From Catenaria anguillulae PL171 (taxonomy: Eukaryota; Blastocladiomycota; Blastocladiomycetes; Blastocladiales; Catenariaceae), in the NCBI GenBank assembly GCA_002102555.1, contig MCFL01000129.1, forward strand, positions 1-64,000: DNA of 64,000 bases. The letters are read 5' to 3'. A model generated the notes under the pieces. That model saw only the letters and a list, made by a program, of their open reading frames with translations, made no database searches and was not told the DNA's origin. Within the stretch, counting starts at the first letter, position 1; the number at the start of each line of letters is the position of its first letter. The translations under genes and the position numbers were made by a program. Positions 44,357 through 59,085 of the stretch are shown here, in pieces.

Positions 44357-44848
44357 GGTATCTGAGCTGGTGTTTGTGGTGGGCAACTTGAGGCTGTGAC
44401 AGGATTTGGAGAGTTCGGGGATGGTTGGGGATTGGGATCGAGGTCAACTATTAATACTATATAGGCGGGATGATTTGCGCAGAGATTGATTCGAATTTCA
44501 ATCCATGTCCATGATGAATGAGTCCATCAATCATTTCCATAAGTATGCATATTAATACTTTTTATGTATTATGATCTTGGCCGAGCGATGTGCGTGTGCA
44601 ACAGCAAACGACAGTGACTCACTCAAACGCACCGTCCACGGCTCTCGAAAAGGAGTGTTTGGCGTGAATGTCAACGAACCTCGTCGGATCGGCGGACCAC
44701 CGTCGGCCCTTCGATGGACCACTTCGGCAGGATTCCATCCATCACCTTTTCATTGAAGATTTCTTCTCGAGACATATTAACACATAAATGCACATGTTCC
44801 GGACCCAATACGAACGCGGTCGCTCCCTATTCGAATACAATCCACAAG
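44357..44848. promoter_or_regulatory. Divergent intergenic region, SHPRH-like and CHORD genes
   Basis: About 490 bp, AT-richer around 44440-44570, lying between two genes transcribed outward; both promoters must be here. No individual site assigned. Confidence 0.5.
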
Positions 44849-45958
44849 ATGACCACAGGCAACACCACCTTGATCTCGTGCACCCGCACCGGCTGCGGCA
44901 AGCTCTTTGATCCCCACCAAAACCTCCGCGGCGACGCTTGCCTCTTCCACCCTGGGTCCCCCGTCTTCCAGGACGGCCGCAAGTACTACTCGTGCTGCCC
45001 AAACACGCGCGCCTCCGACTTTACTCAATTCGTCAACCTGCCCGGGTGCACCACAGGCACCCATTCCGCTGAAAAGCAACACAAGCAACCGGCCCCTGCA
45101 CCTGTGATGCCACCTTCCGCTCCTGCTCCTGTCTCCGCTGCTGCTGCTGCTGCTGCTGGTGCCGCCAACTCCAATGCCAATACCAACACCAACGCAAAGA
45201 TCGAAACATTTTCGTCACCCGCAACCACATCCACGCCACCGCCCGCTTCTGCTCCCGCAACCCCTGCCCTGCCCGACCAAGACCCGCCCAACGCCATTGT
45301 CGCGCCCGGCACTGCTTGCTTGCGCAACGGGTGCGGCACACCCTACGTGTCAGACGCGGCCACGCGCTCCACGCCTTGCATCCATCACCCAGGCGCCCCG
45401 CTCTTCCACGAAGGCTCAAAGGGGTGGACTTGCTGCAAGTCCAAATCCGTGCTTGAGTTTGAACACTTTTTGAAAATCAAGGGATGCACCGAGGGCAAGC
45501 ACGTGTTTGTGAAACCCGCTACGGCCGAGGGCGATGACGTGCCCAAAATCCGCCGCGACTGGTACCAGACCCGCGATCAAGTTATTGTTGCCCTGTTTGC
45601 TAAAGGGTGCAAAAAGGGCGATGGCCTCACACGTGTCATGTTTCGCGACGATGCCGTTGATGCAGAGTTGCATTTGCCCGATGGCACCATTGTCACCACG
45701 GGCTGGTCCACGTTCATGCCCATTGATGTGGAGAAATCAAAGTTTGTCGTTATGAGTACCAAGGTCGAGGTTGTGTTGCAAAAGAAGCAAGGCATTTCGT
45801 GGCCCAGCTTGGAGGCCAGAGAGGGCGATGTGCCAGTGACTGAGTGGACCACGTTTGGAGCGGTTGGTGGCAGGTTTGGCACAGTGGGTGGGAAACAGGT
45901 GCATTACTTGGGCGATGCGCCCATCAAGTCGGCGGCGGCCTCGGCGTCATCGTCATGA
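44849..45958 (+). CDS. CHORDC1: CHORD and CS domain protein (CHORDC1/Rar1 family co-chaperone)
   Basis: Single exon, 369 residues. Two CHORD zinc-binding domains: residues about 10-75 (CTRTGCGKLFDPHQNLRGDA, then CLFHPGSPVF, YYSCC and a final CTTGTH) and about 155-215 (CLRNGCGTPYV, CIHHPGAPLFHEGSKGWTCC, FLKIKGCTEGKH). A CS (p23-like) domain follows (RRDWYQTRDQVIVALFAKGC to SWPSLE). An Ala/Pro/Asn-rich linker separates the CHORDs. The family works with Hsp90 and Sgt1; in animals and filamentous fungi CHORD and CS are fused as here, whereas plant Rar1 lacks CS. All Cys/His ligands seem present. Confidence 0.95.
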   Translation: MTTGNTTLISCTRTGCGKLFDPHQNLRGDACLFHPGSPVFQDGRKYYSCCPNTRASDFTQFVNLPGCTTGTHSAEKQHKQPAPAPVMPPSAPAPVSAAAAAAAGAANSNANTNTNAKIETFSSPATTSTPPPASAPATPALPDQDPPNAIVAPGTACLRNGCGTPYVSDAATRSTPCIHHPGAPLFHEGSKGWTCCKSKSVLEFEHFLKIKGCTEGKHVFVKPATAEGDDVPKIRRDWYQTRDQVIVALFAKGCKKGDGLTRVMFRDDAVDAELHLPDGTIVTTGWSTFMPIDVEKSKFVVMSTKVEVVLQKKQGISWPSLEAREGDVPVTEWTTFGAVGGRFGTVGGKQVHYLGDAPIKSAAASASSS

Positions 45959-47790: not shown

Positions 47791-49216
47791 CGGTGACAGA
47801 CCACTGTTCGGAGTACCTGGGAAGCCCTGAAGCGACTGCTCGACTTGGAGCTGGCCATCCTCCTTGCATCCCACCAAGTCGGTGATGCACGCCTTGAGTT
47901 GCTTGAAAAGCACCATTGGGAGTACTTTGGTTTGCGTCCTTTGCTTGCTTCATTTCCTGTCATTGATCGATGTGCTAAGTTCATTCTTCCGTCCACAGAG
48001 GAATTTGTTGAACTCCTTCGTCCATTTTGGGAATACACCCAAATCACTGCCGCTGGTGTCGGCACATGGACTTTGCCGTGGATCTTGCCATGATATGATG
48101 GCCTTGTGGACACGTTGGATGAGTTCGTCGCCTCCCGCTTGCATCCATCCGACTTTGCCCGAGTTGATCAAGAAGATGTGCTTGCCGCTCTCAAGCTCAA
48201 GCAGGCGCCAGGGGATTTTGCTGCCAACCCGTTGCTGGGTGATGACGCAGCTGGCGATGTTGTTGGAGAAGTTGATCAAGATGACGAGAAGAAGGAGGCC
48301 ATGGCAGTTGAGGAAGGTCTTGATGATGAGAGGGCAAAGGAAATTGAAAAGGCGTTTGGTGGTGCTCATGATTTGGAGAGCGATGAGGTTTCCGGGGCAC
48401 ACGATATCATTGGTGGGCAAGAATCGGTCTTTGCACTGATCAGTGGGGACGATGATGTTGATGACAAGGATCAACTCATCTTTGATGTGGTCGCGGTACG
48501 GGACCGCGTGGAACAAAGTGTCCCTGGAGACAAGGTTGCTCAGAGGATTGGCGGTACTGGTACACTTTCCCTTGCCCAACTGACTGCCAAGCAAGCTGCC
48601 GCCATTGCATCAATTGCTTGTTATGGGCTAGTCCTCAAGCACTTCAACAACACCAGCGACCTGCACAGTTTGTCAACATTGCTCGACCCGGAAACCCGTG
48701 GCCGTGAGACTGTCACGCGTTGGGTTAACGACCAGGGATACTTTCAAGTATACCTGCAGGAACCGTACGTTTGAGTGTTTGCCATTTGATTGCTCAGTTA
48801 GAAAGTATACGTACCTCAAGTTTTACGGATTGATATGTAGGCTTGACCAGCGGGTTGCTGCCAACATGCCGGCGTCTACGGGGCCAAGTTCCAGCCCCAA
48901 GAAGGGCCTCAGCAGCTTGGCCATGGCGAAGGCAAAGATTCTTGGCTCAGGCAGGAGCCAACTGACGCCAAGGCCTTCTGGTGTTTCCGCTGTGCGAGGC
49001 GAGCTGGTCTTGCATGAGGCTGAGGCGCTCAGTGCGAGAGTTCTGGCCGAGGTAAGTGGAAAAGACGTGAATCCGTTTGACTTTTGGCAAATGCAACGGG
49101 ATCGGGTTCCACTGCTCTACAATGTGGCTAAGGACCTGCTCCCGATTGCTGGGACTTCAACAGGAGTAGAGCGGATTTTCTCCATCTGTGCTGAAAAAGC
49201 TGGCCATGGTGTGTGA
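47791..49216 (+). mobile_element. hAT-family transposase remnant
   Basis: From about 47797 one frame reads VRSTWEALKRLLDLELAILL, FPVIDRCAKFILPSTEEFVE and LLRPFWEYTQITAAGVGTW, the standard hAT core. A TGA at 48091 interrupts ILPxYDGLVDTLDEFV and the frame then stays open to 48768. An intron (GTACGT at 48769 to TAG at 48840) joins cleanly to the C-terminal exon. This contains the hAT dimerisation region (NPFDFWQMQRDRVPLLYNVA, DLLPIAGTSTGVERIFSICA) and stops at 49216. The N-terminal zinc finger and first catalytic Asp region are missing. One stop plus a truncated 5' end mean it is inactive, but the intact intron and long open frame imply recent loss. Confidence 0.85.
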
Positions 49217-49280
49217 GGATGAGAAATGATGTGTGTCATGCTCAGTCTGTTTTTACAATGTAATTTTCAGAGTACAGAGC

Positions 49281-49472
49281 CAATACTGCACAAGGAACAA
49301 GGTTCAAATACTCATACTCTGCTGACATCAGATTCATAAATACCAATGCTACCTCAGTACAGGACTCAGAAATACTAATACTGCCCACTCAAATACTGAA
49401 AAACGGCGAAAAGTTCCCGAACAACCAATACTGGTCCTCACAAAGAAACAGGCAAAGGGCAGATACCAATAC
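49281..49472. repeat. Cluster of short AATACTG-like motifs, probable hAT subterminal region
   Basis: Within 190 bp after the transposase stop, AATACTG occurs at about 49282, 49378, 49392 and 49427, with close variants (AATACTC, AATACTA, ATACCAAT, CAATACAG) between them. hAT transposases are known to bind short repeated motifs in subterminal DNA, so this fits the element's right end. No clear terminal inverted repeat was found. Confidence 0.5.
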
Positions 49473-49496
49473 AGCCGTATCGCTGGTTTTGAGTAG

Positions 49497-49590
49497 GTAC
49501 GCCTGTTTTACTCTGCTTCTGGGTTGCCGCGCACATTTGCGTGGCTCGATCCTGACCAAATGCCTTGTCCATGTCCAGACCTACTTATTT
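49497..49590 (+). repeat. Dispersed repeat B, copy 2 (fragment of the membrane-protein gene)
   Basis: Similar to 36897-36989, same orientation. It reads FTLLLGCRAHLRGSILTKCL then stops soon after, so this copy is a gene fragment, not a gene. Confidence 0.85.
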
Positions 49591-49918
49591 GGGTGGCAAC
49601 GATGAAAAAGGCGCTTGTCGCGTGAGGGCAAAGCAGTTCACATACAGTTGAGCTCGAGACCAAATGAACGCCGAGTGGCGCAAACTATTTGCTGTGTATC
49701 ATGGAGGGAAGAAAGAAAGGAACTCAAACAAAGGCAGGACCGACGGAGAGGTTTACAAACTGACAAGACAAAATGGGGGGATGATAAATGATGGTGAGGT
49801 GGACACACGGGCGACACAACCTGCTGATGACTGAACGCAGGTAAACCAGGAATCGAAAGAGCGAGAAAAAAAAATCAAAACAAGAAAGACGAAAAAAAGC
49901 AATCAAGCACAGCGCATC

Positions 49919-52900
49919 CTACTTCTTTTTGCCGATGCTACTCCCTCCTCCGCCAAACGAAATAGTCCACGACATTTTCCGCCTCGCGCTTGTGCCCGAA
50001 TCCAAACCATCGAGCGACGCCGTCTCGGCCTCGTCACCAATCCCATGCTCCAAATCGGGATTGGGCAAACTAATGGCCGAACTCATGCGCACCAACCCTT
50101 CACCGTCAGCACCGCCATTTGAAGAGCTAGATCCGCCAAGTCGGCGACCTGACAAACTCACGTTACTTCCACCGGCACTCGCCGATCCCGCCGTACCAGC
50201 CGGCGGCTCCTCCTCAATTGAAGTGCCCACGAGCATGCGGAACGTATCGAGTGACGACTCCGAGTGCGAGTACATGTTGTTCAAGTGGCCCCCCACGCGC
50301 GCAGCGTGCGGTGTAATGGCCGATGGGAGGCCGACAAGCGACATGCCTTCGAGACTTGGATCCGACGCGGCATCATCGGCGGCAACAATGGTCGAATCGA
50401 CGGCAGCAACCACCGTCATATCTGGCGACCCAGGCATGAGCGGCGGACTTGGGGCGTCGCCATCTTCGCCGTCCAACACGGCAAACGTCGAATACCGCGA
50501 CGTGTCGTTCCCTAAATCGTCGGCCGCCATCTCGTCGGCATCTTCACTGGATAAACCCAACACGGTCGTATCTTCGCCAATCCCATTGCCGAACGCGGTC
50601 CCGTCGACCAAGGTCAAGGACGCTAAACTTGCGCCAACCTGGCTCGCGAAATCCATGCCATTGCCATGACTTCCGCCCGATCCCGCCAACGACGGCGTTG
50701 ACACGGACGTTGGTCTTGAACTCACCTTGAGCGTGGTACTCGTGCGCTTGTTTGCAGCAGACGTGGACGCTGACCCATGCTCAAATGCGCTCGACGAAGG
50801 CGGCAACATGACGGGCCCTGTGGCCAATGGCGACGACGGCATCGAATTTGCGGCCGATGCGCCGCCCATGGGCGATCCGCGCGACACGGGCGTGGTGATG
50901 CCCAACGCGTCTTGACCACCACTTGCACCCGCACCAGGACTGGATGCGCTCGTCGGTGTGCTGACTCCCACACCGCCACTGGACACGGGAATGGTGATTG
51001 GCGGCAGGGCTTGCGGCGACAGCGACGTGATGGGCACAGCGCCCGCCGTGCGCGGTAACGAAAACACACCGCCTTCTTGCACGCGCTGATCCCTCGTGAC
51101 ACGAATCTTGTCCATGAGCGCCAGCATAAAACTCTGCCTGGCCTTTTCGTCGGTCATGTTGAGCACATACGACGACGGTAACGACGAGTCCTGTTGTTGG
51201 CCATTGGCACTACCCAGCGATGCAAGCAACCGCCCGCCGCCGCCGCCCACGCCGCCAAACGCGCCAGCAAACCCACCACTACCACTTGGGTGCTTGGCAA
51301 TAAGCGTATTGGATGCCGTTGACACACTGCCTTGCTCAATCTCGAGCACAATCATGCTGCTGCCGCGCTCCTTGACAGTTAAATCCGCCAAGTCAATGAG
51401 CCGAATAAACTTGACCTTTTTCTTGTGCACCTTGGCCATGAGCAACAAGTCGCTCATCAGGTATAGCTTGAGTGCATGTTGCTTGCCGCCCGCCGCACTC
51501 ACGAGCGCCGACAAGCCAACCATGGCCGCGGCCGACGACGCGCCCACGCCTGTCACCTCAGTGACATCCACCTCCAAAATCAGCCTGCGCGAGTACTTGA
51601 TGACAATGGGCGGGCACCCTTCCACTTGCTTAAACATGGTAAACATGCGTGTCATTTCCTCTTCTTGCTGCTTGACCTGGTTGACTTGCGCAGCAATCTC
51701 GTTCATCATAGTGAGTGCGCTCGTCAACCCAGGTGCATCCGGGTGGTCCGGTGGCGTGTGTTTGCGGACGTCCTTGAGCAGCAACGGGTATCGCGTGGCG
51801 CGCTGGATGGGCAAGATGAGAAAATCTTGCAGTTGCTGGCGGTTCGTGTCGCGCGAGTGCTTGCACCGCTCGTTGAATTGCTTGAATTGGTCGTTGGACT
51901 CTTCGGCACGCCGCACCATGTTGAGTGCGTTGGAGTAGTTGTCGACAAACTTGAGAAACACGGCAAAGTCGTCGCGGTGCGCGAGAAACAGCGGCGATAG
52001 CTGCGAAGATTCATCGTCCCAATTGTCCATGACTTGTTGCAGCTCGGCCGCAAACGACGCACTAAAGTCCAGCAGCGCTTGGACGCCCGTGAACACGAGA
52101 CGAATGAACACGGATGGCACCAGCTTTTGTTCCTCGAGTGGCGCCTTGAACTGGGTCAACAAAATGGACAAGGATTCGCGATACGAAAGTTCGGTTTCGT
52201 GCACCTCATTGGCCACGTACGACCGGAGCTCGAGCTGCTTGCGGCGCTTCTCTGGCGTCTCTGGCATGGCCACGGGCGGCGGCTGGTGTTGCGCAGGTGG
52301 CGCACCAGCGGCTTGCGAATCGCCGCCAATCAAGGTCGAGTTGGACGTGTCGATGCTCATGCGCGACGCATCGCCAACGTCTTCCCCGCCGCTGTCTGTA
52401 CCAATCGTCGACGTGCTGTCCATCATGGAATCGTGCACGGGCTGGTGCGCTTCTGCACCACCACCACCTGCTGCGGCTGCACCCGCAGATACGCTCGGCG
52501 TGTATCCAGAATCCATGCTGTGCGTCCTGGACGCCTGCCTTGGCGGCTTGCCCTGTGCCTGCCCTGCGGCTGCCTCTCCCATCTGCGCTACCGACGTGCC
52601 GGCCTCCTCGGAAACGGCGCCCAACCCGGGCGCGGCGGCCATGGGCGGCTGCGGCTGCATGGGCGCGTTTGCGGGGCGGCGGAGCGACGAATACCGTTTG
52701 TTGAGCATGCCCGGCTGTACCATGCGATGCTGCAACTGCTGCTGCGGCGTCGCAGGTAAATGCATGATGGTCTGCTGCGATTTGGGTCTGCGCAGAGACG
52801 CCGTGCGCCCGCCAACAAGTACTTGTTGCCGGTGGGCAAGGCTCGAGGCGCGCGAGGCAATTGTGTTTGGGTCGCCCGGGTGAATGGCGAGCGGTGGACC

Positions 52901-55096
52901 GCCCGGTGCACCTGGCGGCGCGACGCCGTGAGGAGGTGGGGGCGCGAGCTGTGCGCCCGGTGGAAGTAAGTGTGGCGGATGTTGAGGGTGGAATTGGGCA
53001 GGCGGAGGTTGAGGCTGGTAGGCTTGCCGATAGGGTGATGTTTGCGGATGTTGCTGTTGGCCCGGCGGGGGCAGATAATGCATGCCGGGTGGTGGCGGTT
53101 GCTGCTGCAAGTACGGCCCTGCACCCGGGGCAGGTGCTGGTGGGCGGTAACCCATTTGCTGCTGCTGAGGCGGCGGGCGCATGTACGGCGGTTGCTGGCC
53201 GGCCGCAATCATCATGGATGTTTGCCGATTGAGCCCTTGAGCACCGGCCGGTGGCGGCTGGTAGTATTGCTGTTGACCGGGGGCCGCATTCGGTCCCGGG
53301 CGCGGCGCGTATTGCATGGGGACACCAGGCGGGGGGCGGACAAACGCGGCACCGGATGGCGGGGCGGCATAGTGTTGGGGCGATCCGGGTCGAGGCGGGC
53401 CCATGTATTGCTGCTGAGGCTGACCGGGGTGCGGTGGAGCGATCGTGGGGCGGACAGAGGGGCGGCGTTGGTGCTGTTGTTGAAACTGCTGAGTTGCAGA
53501 CATGGGCGATCCGGGACGCGGAGGCATCATTCCTTGTGAAGGCTGCTGCGGCGGTCGCATTTGCGGCGACCCTTGCTGCTGCTGCTGCGACGGCGGCGGC
53601 CTTGCAATCGCCTTCTGCTGCTGCTGCTGCTGCTGCGCCATGAACATGGTCGAAGTCAGATGACGCAAATTCCTGGGCCGGAAAAAGGCCTCCTCTGGCT
53701 CGGTATGTTCCAAGCTCGTGTACACTGGCTGATCTGGATCATCGTCATCACCGATACTCAGCAAATAGTAGACGCGCGGGTAGTGTGTTTGTGCGCACGA
53801 GAGCAAGAACCGGTTCGACAGCAAAAAGAGTTGCTCCGACTGCGGGATGGAATCGAAAAACTTGATGGACAGGACGTCATCCTTGAACTCGATGAGGTAA
53901 ATGTCGCCGAAAATGGACTGGGCAAGGACCATGGGTGTGGGCGAGTTGGGAAGGCCGCTCACGCTCGTGTACGTGACAAGGTAGAGCTCGACATCGAGCG
54001 ACAGGGATGGGTGGCGTGGAATGGGGACTGATTGCGGGGAGCGGCGTTCGTGCAGCCACTGGACAATGTTGCGTCGGCAGACAAGCACACCGCCGGGACC
54101 CGATGAGCCGGCGCCTCCACCGCTTGCGCCAGTGCCCGAGGTGTCACCAGGAACGGGAATGACGAGGTTCGACGAGGATTCGACGCGCGTGTCCCATCGG
54201 CGGAAGACTTGGTTCTGCTCCAAGTCGAGCTCATAGTACACGAGCATCTTCTCACCGAGCACAATGGTTTCTTCGCGTTGCTTTTCCGAGTTGAGGGCAT
54301 TGAGCTGCGAAGCGGCAGCCGCAGCGACAGCAGCCGACGAAATTCCCGGTGACGACGAAGAGGTGGATGACGGGCGGTGGTAAGCTTCGAGGCATGCAAA
54401 GACAGGGTTGCGCCATGACGATTCAACGGACACAACCGAGTAGAGGACGGATCCAGGGATTGCGTCGACGGTGGGCAATGCCACGCTGAGCTTTGTTTCT
54501 GCCGGGTCGACGAGAATGTAGACGATTTTGCAGTCCTCGACGTTGCCGATGAGGACGCAGCGCGATTTCCAGTCGGATACCATGTTGCGGCCCCAGATGA
54601 GCCACGTGTGGAAGGTGGATTGGTAGCGCTCTTGATCGACGAGTTCAAATGTGACGTTTTGTGGGTTGTACTCGAGAATGAGGATGGCGCCACCTTCAAG
54701 AGCAGCAAGGATATAGTCTGGAAAAGGGGGGGGGGGGGGGGGGGGCAAACCGATGAGCGACTGACTGCTTCTTCATCAAAGTTGGAACGGTCGAATGAGC
54801 AAACCTTTGGGATTTGTTCCGATGCGTAGCCGCTCGAGGCCCTGAATGTTTGCGCCGAGGTAGCATTCAGCAATCTTGATGAGGGTAAAGGACTGGGGAT
54901 CGATTTGGTAGAGCTGAATGTTGGCAGCGGCGTTGGTGGTGAGCAGCAGGGCTCCCCACTCGGATCCAGCAAAGAAGCCAGTGACGGCTCGGCGCTGGGC
55001 AATCGGGATGGAGCTGTCGAAGCCGGCGCCGGCGCCAAAGGAACCGGCGTGGCCGCCATGAGGCACGAGGCCGAGGCCAGACCCGGACGAGTGCAT
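49919..55096 (-). CDS. SF3B3/Rse1 N-terminal propeller fused to a DH-PH RhoGEF
   Basis: Two exons, 54805-55096 and 49919-54717 (about 1696 residues), then perhaps more upstream: the frame is open to 55267 and already reads like SF3B3 (RTAQFIPLHSAPACPSP). The N-terminal 450 residues match the first beta-propeller of SF3B3/Rse1: GTNPKDYILAALEGG joined across the intron, ILILEYNPQNVTFELVDQER, KIVYILVDPAETKLSVALP, NPVFACLEAYHR, YYELDLEQNQVFRRWD, GGVLVCRRN, FGDIYLIEFKDD and EEAFFRPRNLRHL. There the similarity ends at a Gln/Pro-rich linker (53.65-52.3 kb). A DH domain follows (ELRSYVANEVHETELSYRES, LQDFLILPIQRATRYPLLLK; 52.2-51.7 kb), then a PH domain (to 51.09 kb) and a Ser-rich tail. The DH part should activate a Rho GTPase. 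The other two SF3B3 propellers are absent. Confidence 0.82.
54726..54745. repeat. 20-base homopolymer in the intron of the RhoGEF fusion gene
   Basis: Twenty G on the plus strand, so twenty C on the coding strand, ending nine bases before the 3' splice site: it serves as the polypyrimidine tract. An unspliced reading of it as MPPPPPPP is an artefact. Confidence 0.9.
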
Positions 55097-55609
55097 GTCG
55101 ACGTCAACGTATCGGGCGAGCGACGTCGGATATTGCGCGAACGGGTGGGTAAGGTGGGCGTAGCCAAAAGTGAAGGTGGCAACGGGAGAAGGGCACGCGG
55201 GCGCAGAGTGCAGTGGGATGAACTGGGCGGTTCTTGCGTCTTGGGAGCGAGTAGAGGCGGAGTGCGGCTAGTCCATGAGGGTATTATCCATGGGATGAAT
55301 AGATGGGTGCGGCAATCGCAGTGAACTCTGTGCCTTGCCCAAGTACATTCATACATACATGTGTAGGTAAAGGTGGCTGCGGCGGTATTTGCCGGCGATT
55401 CTCACGTGGATATTCAAAAGGTGCCATGTGCGTGCGTGGGACTGTGGGAGCCGGATCGGCGTGCCTAGTGCCTTCCCCCTTCTCGAACACTCGCAGAATG
55501 CTCGAAGAGCCCTCTTGGACCCTCTCCTCTCATTCAGGATCCCCTGACTGACTGCCACCAAACCGTTGCATTTATATTGCAAAGATCAAAACATAAATAT
55601 TATGTAAAT
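55097..55609. other. Divergent region, RhoGEF fusion gene and GPN2
   Basis: The left 170 bp may still be coding for the RhoGEF gene N-terminus (frame open to 55267, no ATG). The rest, AT-rich towards 55600, should contain both promoters. Confidence 0.5.
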
Positions 55610-56835
55610 ATGAATATCATAATGAATTCAAAGCCAATGTCCATGTCCAAAAGTCACAACAAGCAGCCGTTCGGCCAGCTCGTTATTGGCCCGCCCGGAT
55701 CGGGCAAGTCGACCTACTCGAGGGCCCTCAAGCACGCCTTCACACAACTCGGCAGGCCCACCGTTCTCGTCAATCTGGACCCAGCCAACGACTCGACCGA
55801 CTCGACCGACTCGAACGACTCGACAAACACAAGTATGGACATTGACATTGACATTGCCCACTTGATCTCGCTCCAAGACGCCATGGACGAGTTTGGCCTC
55901 GGCCCTAACGGTGCTCTCGTCTACTGCCTCGAGTACTTGGCCGCCAACCTCGATTGGCTGCGCCATCAGCTCGCCCCACACCTCGACCAGGGCTCCTACT
56001 TCCTCTTTGACTTGCCCGGACAAGTCGAGCTCTTCTCGCACCACTCGGCCATTCAGTCCATCATCCACTTGCTCACCTCCCGCTCTTCAAACATCAACAT
56101 GCGCCTGACGGTCGTCCAGCTCATGGATGCCCATCACTTGCTGTCGCCATCCTCGACGCTCTCAAACTACAAGTACATTTCAGCCGTGCTCTTTGTGCTC
56201 CAGTCCATGATGCATCTCGAGCTCCCACAAGTCAACTTGCTGTCCAAAATCGACCTGGCCGCATCGCAAGCACACGCCTACGGCCACTCGCTCCCATTAC
56301 GGCTTTCGGCGTACACGCACCCAGACGACATCCACTTGGTCCTTCCATCAACACCACCAGACGACACCTCGTCTTCATCATCACCCTTGTCGTCCAAACT
56401 CAACAAGCTCAACAAGGAACTCGCAGACTTTATTTCGGACTATGCCCTCGTCGAATTCCTGCCATTTGCAGTCACGGACCCTATGTGCTTGCAAGCAGCC
56501 ATTGCACTTGTTGACAAGGCGTCCGGGTACGCCTATGGCGCCATTGCAGGCGACGTGAGCGTGGCCGCCCTCATTGACGAGGTGGTCGAAAGTATGATGC
56601 CGAGTTGCGGCACCACACCAACCAGTTGGATGCCGACGAGCACGAGCACGAGCCCGAGCACGATTTTGGGTCCGAGGGCGTCAGTGCACAGCCTGGTATG
56701 GAGCATTTGGATCAGGACATGTTTGACCGGTGGAATCGGTTGCAGAGGGAGGTGGCCGTGGGCAAGAGCGGTGGAGCATCGACTGGGACGATTGACAAGG
56801 TTGGGGTCAAGGATATTATGGAGCGGTTAGTTTGA
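55610..56835 (+). CDS. GPN2: GPN-loop GTPase 2
   Basis: P-loop VIGPPGSGKSTYS, NLDPAND, the defining Gly-Pro-Asn loop (FGLGPNGALVYCLEYLAANL), DLPGQVELFSHH and NLLSKIDLA identify GPN2, which acts with GPN1/GPN3 in assembly and nuclear import of RNA polymerase II. Ser/Thr/Asp insertions follow NLDPAND and lie mid-protein. Near 56592 the frame changes: the main frame runs on to a meaningless end at 56830, while the frame one base off gives the natural GPN2 end (KYDAELRHHTNQLD, MFDRWNRLQREV, VGVKDIMERL), stopping at 56835. One base seems to be missing in the A run at 56590. Several ATGs (55610, 55637, 55643) could start it. Confidence 0.92.
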
Positions 56836-57058
56836 ATGCGTGTGTATAAACATCGAAATCAATCTGTATTTGTCTAAGGAGCCCTTGCTCAGGATTGTTG
56901 GTCAAGACAACCACATGAACGGTCAATTGTCGACTAGCCAAGCTACTACGGACAAGGAAAGGAACCAAAGTACGGGTATGACATGACAGGGGTAGGAAAA
57001 AAAAATCCAAAAGGAATCCAGTCCAGAAAAGTTGAGCAGCATCTCTTTCCCAACATCT

Positions 57059-57335
57059 TCACCGCTGGCCAACGAAATGCTCCGAACCAACCGACTGCAC
57101 ATCACACGCCTCGCCCTTGACAATCCACCCGCCCATGATGCCCATCCCGCCTGCGGCCCTTGCCTCGTCTGCGTCCATGCCATACTCACACTCACCATTC
57201 TCCACAATGACTGCATCCCGCAATTCGCCATCCGTCATTGCACTTGTATCACCCACGCCCACGAGCGCGCTCGACATGGGATGATTCACAATGACCCAAT
57301 CTCCGCCCGCCACTGGTGCCGATGCGCGCGACCAA

Positions 57336-57366
<31 letters not shown>

Positions 57367-59085
57367 TTGCTGACGTTGGTGCAGGGGACCCGTGCACTGT
57401 GCGATTCAGTTGCATGTCCCTGAGCGACGTGACGCTAGGCAGTTGGCCCCAGACCACGTCTGCGCCCGTCGATGGGTGCTTGCGATCCACCGACACGGCG
57501 TCCGTCAGCATGGTCCGTTGGCCATTATTGCAGGCGGCCGTGCACGACGTGCAAGGTTGAGTGACATGGTACCCGATGCAGTTGCCACTAAGTACACGCA
57601 CGAGCACGTGTGAGGCTCAGTCAATGCGGATGGATCAATAAAAACACAGAGAGACAAACATACCATCCAAGGCAAGCAATATCACGGATATGACACTTGC
57701 AATTGGCCGTCACATACGTGTCATTGACGAGTGCCACAGCGCCCTTGAGCGGCAAGTCGGTCGAAAACAGCTCTACGCGCGTGTCGGCCAGCAGAACCGC
57801 CTTCATGGCGCGGTTGCTCACGAGCCGGTGGCAGTGCCTGCACGCCAAATGGCATACGGGCTTGGTTCGGAACTGCGGGTGGGTTTGCGCGGGCGAAATT
57901 ACTGGTGGGGGTGAGATGTTTGAGGAACCCGGGGAGGATGAGGACGTCGACGAGCCGCGGTTGAATGTGGCGTTGGTCAATGTGGAGAGCGGAACCGTAG
58001 GTGTGCGCGAAAATGCCGCGGTCGTGGAAGAAACGGGTGCCGGTACTGGTCGTGCCAGTGGGAATGACGGGTGCGCGAGCGGTTGCATCCGCTGGAGCGC
58101 GTTGGAAGGCGCAGACGTGTTTGCTCCAGACGCGTTCGGTTGCTGGCTGACGGTTTCTGAACCACGGCTAAACGCTGCCGTCGCGGCTGCGGCTGCGGCA
58201 TACTGATCCGCGCCCGCGGCCGCAGATATGCCCGTGAGCGGGAACGTTGTGCGGTTCGGGTGACCAAAGGGCAGCAACGATGTCCAGTGAATGATTTGAG
58301 TCGGCGGCGTGACGGCTTGGGATTCGCGGATAGGCTCAAACGACAAGGAGGATGAGACGGTTGTGCTGCTTGGCAAAGTACTTGAAGACGGCGGAGCTTG
58401 TGCAAAGACGGCATTGGCGTGCTCTTGGGCAGTGACAATGGACGCGGCGTACGCCGCAGCAGCATTGGCTGCGGCAGACGAAAGTCGAGAACCAAATGCA
58501 GACGACGACGAGGAGGGTGTTTGGCGGTTGACTGTGCTAGATTCGTCCACGGCTGATGCGTTGGGCGCGGACACGGGCGAGCTCGACCCATTGGACGACG
58601 ATGAAGATGCGGTCACAGACAATGGAAACCGCATCCTGCGTCGGCGGTACAGCGGCGGCGTGGGTGGAGCTCCTGTAACAGCTCTTGAAGACGCAGCGGA
58701 GTTTGAAGAACTTTGCATTGTAGCTGGTAGACGCACTGGCCGGGGCCAGTGAAAACGTGAGTGTGCTATTGCTTGTGCTTGCTCTGTCGACCAACGTCGA
58801 ATCGCCAACAAACATTGGGGTTACGTCCATTGCGAACGGCGACGATGACGTAGTGACCAGCGATGTTGCGGAATCGATGCGGCCAAAGCTAAACCGTGGG
58901 GAAGGTGTCATGGGAGTCCTTGGTTCCTCAATCAATAAGGTTGCTGAATTATCGGCATTGGTAGCAGTGGTGGAAGGAGTCGATGGTGAAGGAAGTCCGT
59001 TGTATGTCGACGGCTGTTGCGACCGTTGTGAGCCTCGGCGTGATTGGCCAAGAGTGTGGTTAGTGTTAGGCGTCCTGGACGACAT
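57059..59085 (-). CDS. FAM72: FAM72-domain protein with long Ser/Ala-rich N-terminal extension
   Basis: The last exon (57059-57587) joins 57664 upstream with phase kept (TG|T). The C-terminal domain reads VCHLACRHCHRLVSNRAMKA, VLLADTRVELFSTDLPLKGA, CKCHIRDIACLGCGNCIGYH and QPCTSCTAACNNGQ, an unmistakable FAM72 core with its Cys pairs (zinc ligands). In animals the protein is about 150 residues and linked to cell-cycle control and UNG2. Here it is preceded by about 450 low-complexity residues beginning MSSRTPNTNHTLGQ. Near 58715 the frame changes from the N-terminal segment (TSNSTLTFSLAPASAS) to the central one (SSSNSAASSRAVTGAPPTPP) without good splice sites, so one base may be missing. A Ser run from a CGA repeat lies near 57350. 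Confidence 0.82.

Follow-up and report, generated by a model that had tools for sequence, protein, structure and literature searches.

The window analysed here, the first 64,000 nucleotides of contig MCFL01000129.1 of Catenaria anguillulae PL171 (C34 of the 457 contigs in the 41.07 Mb assembly), carries on its minus strand a gene that joins two parts of very different origin: a seven-bladed beta-propeller of the kind found in the splicing factor RSE1 (SF3B3 in human) and a Rho guanine nucleotide exchange factor (RhoGEF). A preliminary description of this locus, made from the sequence alone, had read both parts in one open frame beginning at 55267. The shared frame stands. The region 49922-54715 (minus strand) encodes 1598 amino acids with no internal stop, the frame ending at 49919, and matches both PF10433 (Beta-prop_RSE1_1st, the first beta-propeller of RSE1, DDB1 and CPSF1; E 5.6e-22) and PF00621 (RhoGEF, full length 1-180; E 3.4e-43). 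The start does not stand, and an intron had been overlooked. This 87-nucleotide GT-AG intron (54804-54718) splits the propeller, so that the gene has two exons and encodes 1696 amino acids after splicing; the GT-AG borders and the uninterrupted K-DYILA sequence of related proteins support the splice site. Translation most probably begins with the ATG at 55096. The position 55267 was discarded because there is an in-frame stop upstream of this ATG and the upstream stretch has a 5-base insertion or deletion between the two alleles described below. The features of the gene are as follows.

54805-55096, minus strand: exon 1, with the Met start (the first in-frame ATG after the stop) and the N-terminal portion of the RSE1-type propeller.
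54718-54804, minus strand: intron, 87 nucleotides, GT-AG, with a poly-C tract near its end; 80 nucleotides on the other allele.
49919-54717, minus strand: exon 2, with the remaining propeller, linker, DH domain, PH-like stretch, tail and stop codon.
53648-54717, minus strand: exon-2 part of propeller A (RSE1/SF3B3-type; PF10433), ending in LRHLTST at residue 454.
52217-53647, minus strand: Gln/Pro/Ala-rich linker, residues 455-931, with R-x-x-S-(hydrophobic) motifs.
51680-52216, minus strand: DH (RhoGEF) domain, residues 932-1110; PF00621 at E 9.5e-44 in a six-frame search.
51050-51679, minus strand: PH-like stretch, residues 1111-1320, limits approximate; conserved blocks, outside Pfam recognition.
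49922-51049, minus strand: Ser/Gly/Pro-rich low-complexity tail, with an RK(M/L)SWT motif near its end.

The propellers of SF3B3, DDB1 and CPSF1 are parts of one three-propeller scaffold. Pfam, sequence matches, a propeller tree and a modelled structure all identify the N-terminal part of the fusion as an RSE1-type first propeller, as the preliminary description had held. It has no Pfam match to CNH and falls among RSE1 in the tree (CNH domains lie outside the scope of that tree). The suggested structural comparison with SF3B3 was run on the predicted model of the propeller from the Blastocladiella emersonii relative, and the best match was propeller A of SF3B3, human residues 13-398. The rest of the scaffold is missing, again as first described: the second propeller and the CPSF_A C-terminal region (PF23726, PF03178) gave no match in the five fusions scanned with Pfam, and neither family is in the precomputed Pfam lists of any of the nine relatives. 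In the C. anguillulae PL171 genome, PF03178 is found on contigs other than that of the fusion. A separate full-length RSE1 gene, which had been suggested as a check, lies on C323 (1204 amino acids after one splice, with PF10433 and PF03178 matches); DDB1 is on C334 and CPSF1 on C12.

The same fusion is present in related genomes. Protein searches each scored about 8000 candidates sharing most words. In the search with the exon-2 frame 7964 candidates were scored and 20 proteins reached E <= 0.001; nine of the 20 are annotated proteins with both Pfam domains: one each from B. emersonii, B. britannica, Allomyces javanicus, A. arbusculus and Sorochytrium milnesiophthora, and four from A. macrogynus. 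All nine are from Blastocladiomycota (lineages were checked for B. britannica, A. arbusculus and S. milnesiophthora; the others are congeneric). A profile search gave 124 matches, with the same nine and no other both-domain protein among the best 120 of the 124. A DH-PH search with the Sorochytrium protein gave 58 matches – eight of the nine fusions, then a RhoGEF of Amoeboaphelidium protococcarum, with ARHGEF17 and ARHGEF10 as the next best DH matches behind it. Because this search missed one known fusion (P0001), the apparent absence of the fusion beyond Blastocladiomycota is only moderately supported. No protein named as from Paraphysoderma, Coelomomyces or the sanchytrids was among the matches listed, many of which are unnamed.

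The Allomyces fusion genes are of two types (P0003, P0005, P0006 and P0007; P0004 and P0008), which suggests a duplication in that lineage. Two of them, P0003 of A. javanicus and P0007 of A. arbusculus, are publicly named 'pre-mRNA-splicing factor rse1'. The propeller architecture explains these names, which are misleading because full-length RSE1 is a different gene, as seen in the C. anguillulae PL171 genome.

A second copy of the locus is found on contig C447 (564970-569904, minus strand), with 97.2% identity over an 8.4-kb alignment (window 49498-57868); the flank at window positions 48141-49493 also aligns to C447, with 93.0% identity. Since the sequence aligns on both sides, this copy was taken as the other allele, and a paralogue was ruled out. 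C34 has the appearance of an unmerged haplotig, and equal-scoring pairs are seen for several further RhoGEF matches. The C447 allele reads through the junction in this frame without a stop (1697 amino acids spliced, in-frame insertions and deletions only). This rules out a mis-assembly at the junction, a concern raised in the preliminary description that is also countered by the nine relatives with both domains.

Between the alleles 42 codons differ, 30 of them synonymously and 12 nonsynonymously, where about 73% nonsynonymous would be expected without selection (P 2.2e-9). The ratio of synonymous to nonsynonymous differences was 8 to 2 in the propeller (P 0.0007), 12 to 3 in the linker (P 2.5e-5), and 7 to 2 in codons 400-560, which span the junction (P 0.0016). 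Purifying selection in the fusion frame makes the linker look translated in that frame, and conservation suggests that propeller and RhoGEF would be expressed as one mRNA.

In the exchange factor part, the best PDB match of the DH domain was ECT2 in both proteins tried. ECT2 is a RhoGEF located in the nucleus between divisions. After the DH domain there are conserved blocks among the fusions, and the phmmer PDB matches of P0009 to ECT2 and Prex1 extend beyond the DH. At E 0.01, the five fusions gave no Pfam match to a C-terminal CNH (PF00780). At the sensitivity of Pfam, they also show no C-terminal propeller of the ARHGEF10/17 type: the other families recorded for the ARHGEF17 matches (PF23748, PF19056, PF19057) gave no match at E 0.01, and the tail is of low complexity. 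The linker is rich in R-x-x-S-hydrophobic motifs, with 4-6 per row in seven rows against shuffle means of 0.30-0.66. Three of them – RASSL (residue 720), RTASL (735) and RYSSL (772) – recur at aligned places in nine of the ten rows each, and the tail motif RK(M/L)SWT is near the end in eight of the ten fusion rows. Motifs of the RxxS type suit basic-directed kinases and 14-3-3 proteins.

The propeller tree had 35 rows, including seven fusions and 25 chosen RSE1 matches; the near-copies P0005, P0007, P0008 and the C447 allele were dropped. All seven fusions fall into a single clade (100/100), whose stem measures 2.94 changes per site, and share a fork with nine fungal RSE1 from Mucoromycota and Dikarya (92/89), apart from the DDB1 and CPSF1 fragments. 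Within this fork the nearest neighbour of the fusions is unsupported (76/19), and the root is set by two short outgroup fragments (DDB1, CPSF1) whose branches are 5-7 changes per site long (50/79), so with such a stem, neighbour and root long-branch effects are possible.

The DH tree had 33 rows – six fusions, chosen representatives of the other matches, and the DH fragments of more than 100 residues from the C. anguillulae PL171 genome, with the pieces of L003, L025 and L006 dropped. The six fusions are grouped (94/77), the aphelid protein from Amoeboaphelidium is their sister (100/98), and the Rom2-type proteins and ARHGEF17 are placed apart. In both trees the C. anguillulae PL171 fusion groups with that of B. 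emersonii (84/63 for the propeller, 97/85 for the DH). The aphelid RhoGEF (P0131) has no propeller by Pfam at E <= 1, though part of the gene may be missing from its model. In the simplest history, a shortened copy of RSE1 was added to an old RhoGEF ahead of the divergence of the sampled Blastocladiomycota. This most likely happened a single time, in an ancestor common to C. anguillulae PL171, Blastocladiella, Allomyces and Sorochytrium, and the fusion has been kept since.

How far the propeller has moved from its ancestor was read from the columns that are near-invariant in RSE1, defined on 39 RSE1 rows; 39 chosen RSE1 matches also went into the second structure model. Of the 93 such columns, the nine fusions have all lost 38 and all kept 35, and the other 20 are mixed. 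Eight of the lost columns fall within residues 102-125 of the B. emersonii protein, where the fusions have in part settled on residues of their own. Among the fusion propellers themselves, 146 of 375 ungapped columns are invariant (nine rows, some from close relatives). This pattern speaks for a new task under constraint rather than for decay.

The account held here to be probable, with good confidence, is that the gene encodes one protein, a RhoGEF whose N-terminal propeller stands alone, descends from an RSE1 (SF3B3) gene by duplication and truncation, and docks or regulates the GEF. The RSE1 copy would have shed propeller B, propeller C and the C-terminal domain and have been fused to an older RhoGEF. 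Because SF3B3 needs A and C together to clamp the SF3B1 C-terminus and SF3B5, the fusion should be unable to form this clamp and is unlikely to act as a splicing factor. Most likely the propeller docks other proteins and in this way brings the GEF to its site or restrains the DH domain, and basic-directed kinases would tune the GEF through the conserved linker motifs of the RxxS type. The conserved propeller columns and the RxxS motifs are the grounds for proposing a phospho-tuned RhoGEF, docked or restrained by its propeller; exchange activity, docking or autoinhibition, and phosphorylation are all predictions from sequence.

Several observations weigh against this account. The sequences of the relatives come from gene prediction, and in P0008 the DH domain is without its first part, perhaps through a gap in the model. 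No PH domain was found by Pfam at E 0.01 in the five fusions scanned. The selection test is weak for the DH-PH (3 synonymous and 1 nonsynonymous differences, P 0.056) and for the tail (7 and 6, P 0.043) because few codons differ there. Neither P0002 nor P0009 has the RKMSWT motif. RxxS-like motifs are visible by eye in the aphelid RhoGEF too, so these motifs may predate the fusion. Finally, the RSE1 of C. anguillulae PL171 itself sits just outside the 92/89 fork and does not adjoin the fusions, so the donor and date of the RSE1 duplication are not fixed by the tree; dating the duplication from it failed for this reason, along with the unsupported neighbour, the long stem and the weak root.

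A different reading of the function is that the propeller still binds an old partner of SF3B3 – the SF3B1 C-terminus, SF3B5, a SAGA subunit, or a cullin/COP9 component – and ties Rho activation to the nucleus, RNA processing or ubiquitin ligases. This is unlikely, but it draws on the 35 of 93 near-invariant columns kept in all nine fusions and on the nuclear ECT2 as the best PDB match of the DH domain. A review (PMC7452928) also reports SF3B3 to be present in SAGA and to partner with cullins and a COP9 subunit. According to the same review, propeller A and propeller C of SF3B3 hold the SF3B1 C-terminus and SF3B5 between them (PMC7452928), and C is absent from the fusion; the 38 columns lost in all nine, eight of them in residues 102-125, also argue against it. 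Also unlikely is a capture of part of the U2 small nuclear ribonucleoprotein (snRNP) scaffold by Rho signalling with one of its ancestral partners still recognised, which in Blastocladiomycota would wire the activation of a Rho GTPase directly to an RNA-processing, SAGA or cullin complex.

It is very improbable that two neighbouring genes had their frames joined by chance, with a separate start near Met 457. The preliminary description had proposed MAQQQQQQQ at about 53640 as an independent start, and Met 457 (MAQQQQ, 53641-53639) does head a low-complexity tract; the relatives, being gene predictions, may likewise have been merged. However, this start finds no backing in the relatives, where the column of Met 457 has Leu in eight of nine, Tyr in one and Met in none, and the column of Met 455 also has no Met. 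Neither allele has a stop, the linker is under purifying selection in the fusion frame, and the domain order is identical in three named genera besides C. anguillulae PL171. That the N-terminus is instead a CNH or WD40-type propeller of the Rom2/ARHGEF17 kind in a shifted place has next to no likelihood: RhoGEFs of those types also bear a propeller, but the reading was rejected on the lack of a Pfam CNH match and the position among RSE1 in the tree, with CNH and WD40 propellers not aligned to this one directly.

The window has other features around the gene. About 700 bases past the fusion stop codon there is a remnant of a hAT transposase (48866-49216, plus strand; dimerisation region PF05699, E 1.3e-7). 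The upstream neighbour is a PF03029 (ATP_bind_1) gene (55610-56830, plus strand) and the downstream neighbour a CHORD-CS domain gene (44714-45958, plus strand); neither gives a hint of a functional link.

Within an early phylum of fungi with swimming spores, the fusion is shared by three named genera and C. anguillulae PL171, and it may be of use as a marker of the Blastocladiomycota lineage. Here the first of the three propellers exists on its own, apparently in a different pathway, and so offers a natural test of whether propeller A can fold and bind alone.

No earlier description of the combination was found in the open literature (most subscription papers are outside this scope), in agreement with the earlier statement that no described protein joins a U2 snRNP propeller to a Rho exchange factor; the terms RhoGEF and Rho GEF do not occur in the accessible part of PMC8146680. 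Four known systems are comparable. The fusion resembles SF3B3/Rse1 (U2 snRNP, SF3b; also SAGA) in its first propeller, aligned over human residues 13-398, but it has no Pfam match to propellers B and C or the C-terminal region, has a RhoGEF in their place, and is changed at 38 of 93 near-invariant columns in all nine relatives. The A. protococcarum RhoGEF (Aphelidiomycota) has the sister DH domain, but no Pfam propeller in its possibly incomplete model. Fungal RhoGEFs of the Rom1/Rom2 type have the order DH-PH-CNH, the CNH being a C-terminal propeller of another family (PF15405 and PF00780 are listed for P0126 and P0173), whereas the fusion has no CNH by Pfam and its DH is in a separate part of the tree. 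ARHGEF17 (TEM4) is a RhoGEF with a seven-bladed propeller, which is C-terminal according to the abstract of PMC9249204; the fusion shows no sign of that propeller by Pfam, although ARHGEF17 and ARHGEF10 are the next best DH matches after the aphelid one. Of the two readings first offered for the locus, a new architecture or two joined genes, the first is borne out by the fusion in the relatives, the separate RSE1, the modelled fold and the placement in the tree. A RhoGEF with an accessory propeller was already known; an RSE1-type propeller at the N-terminus is new, and with it the fusion is a genuine, conserved domain architecture of Blastocladiomycota with a predicted function.
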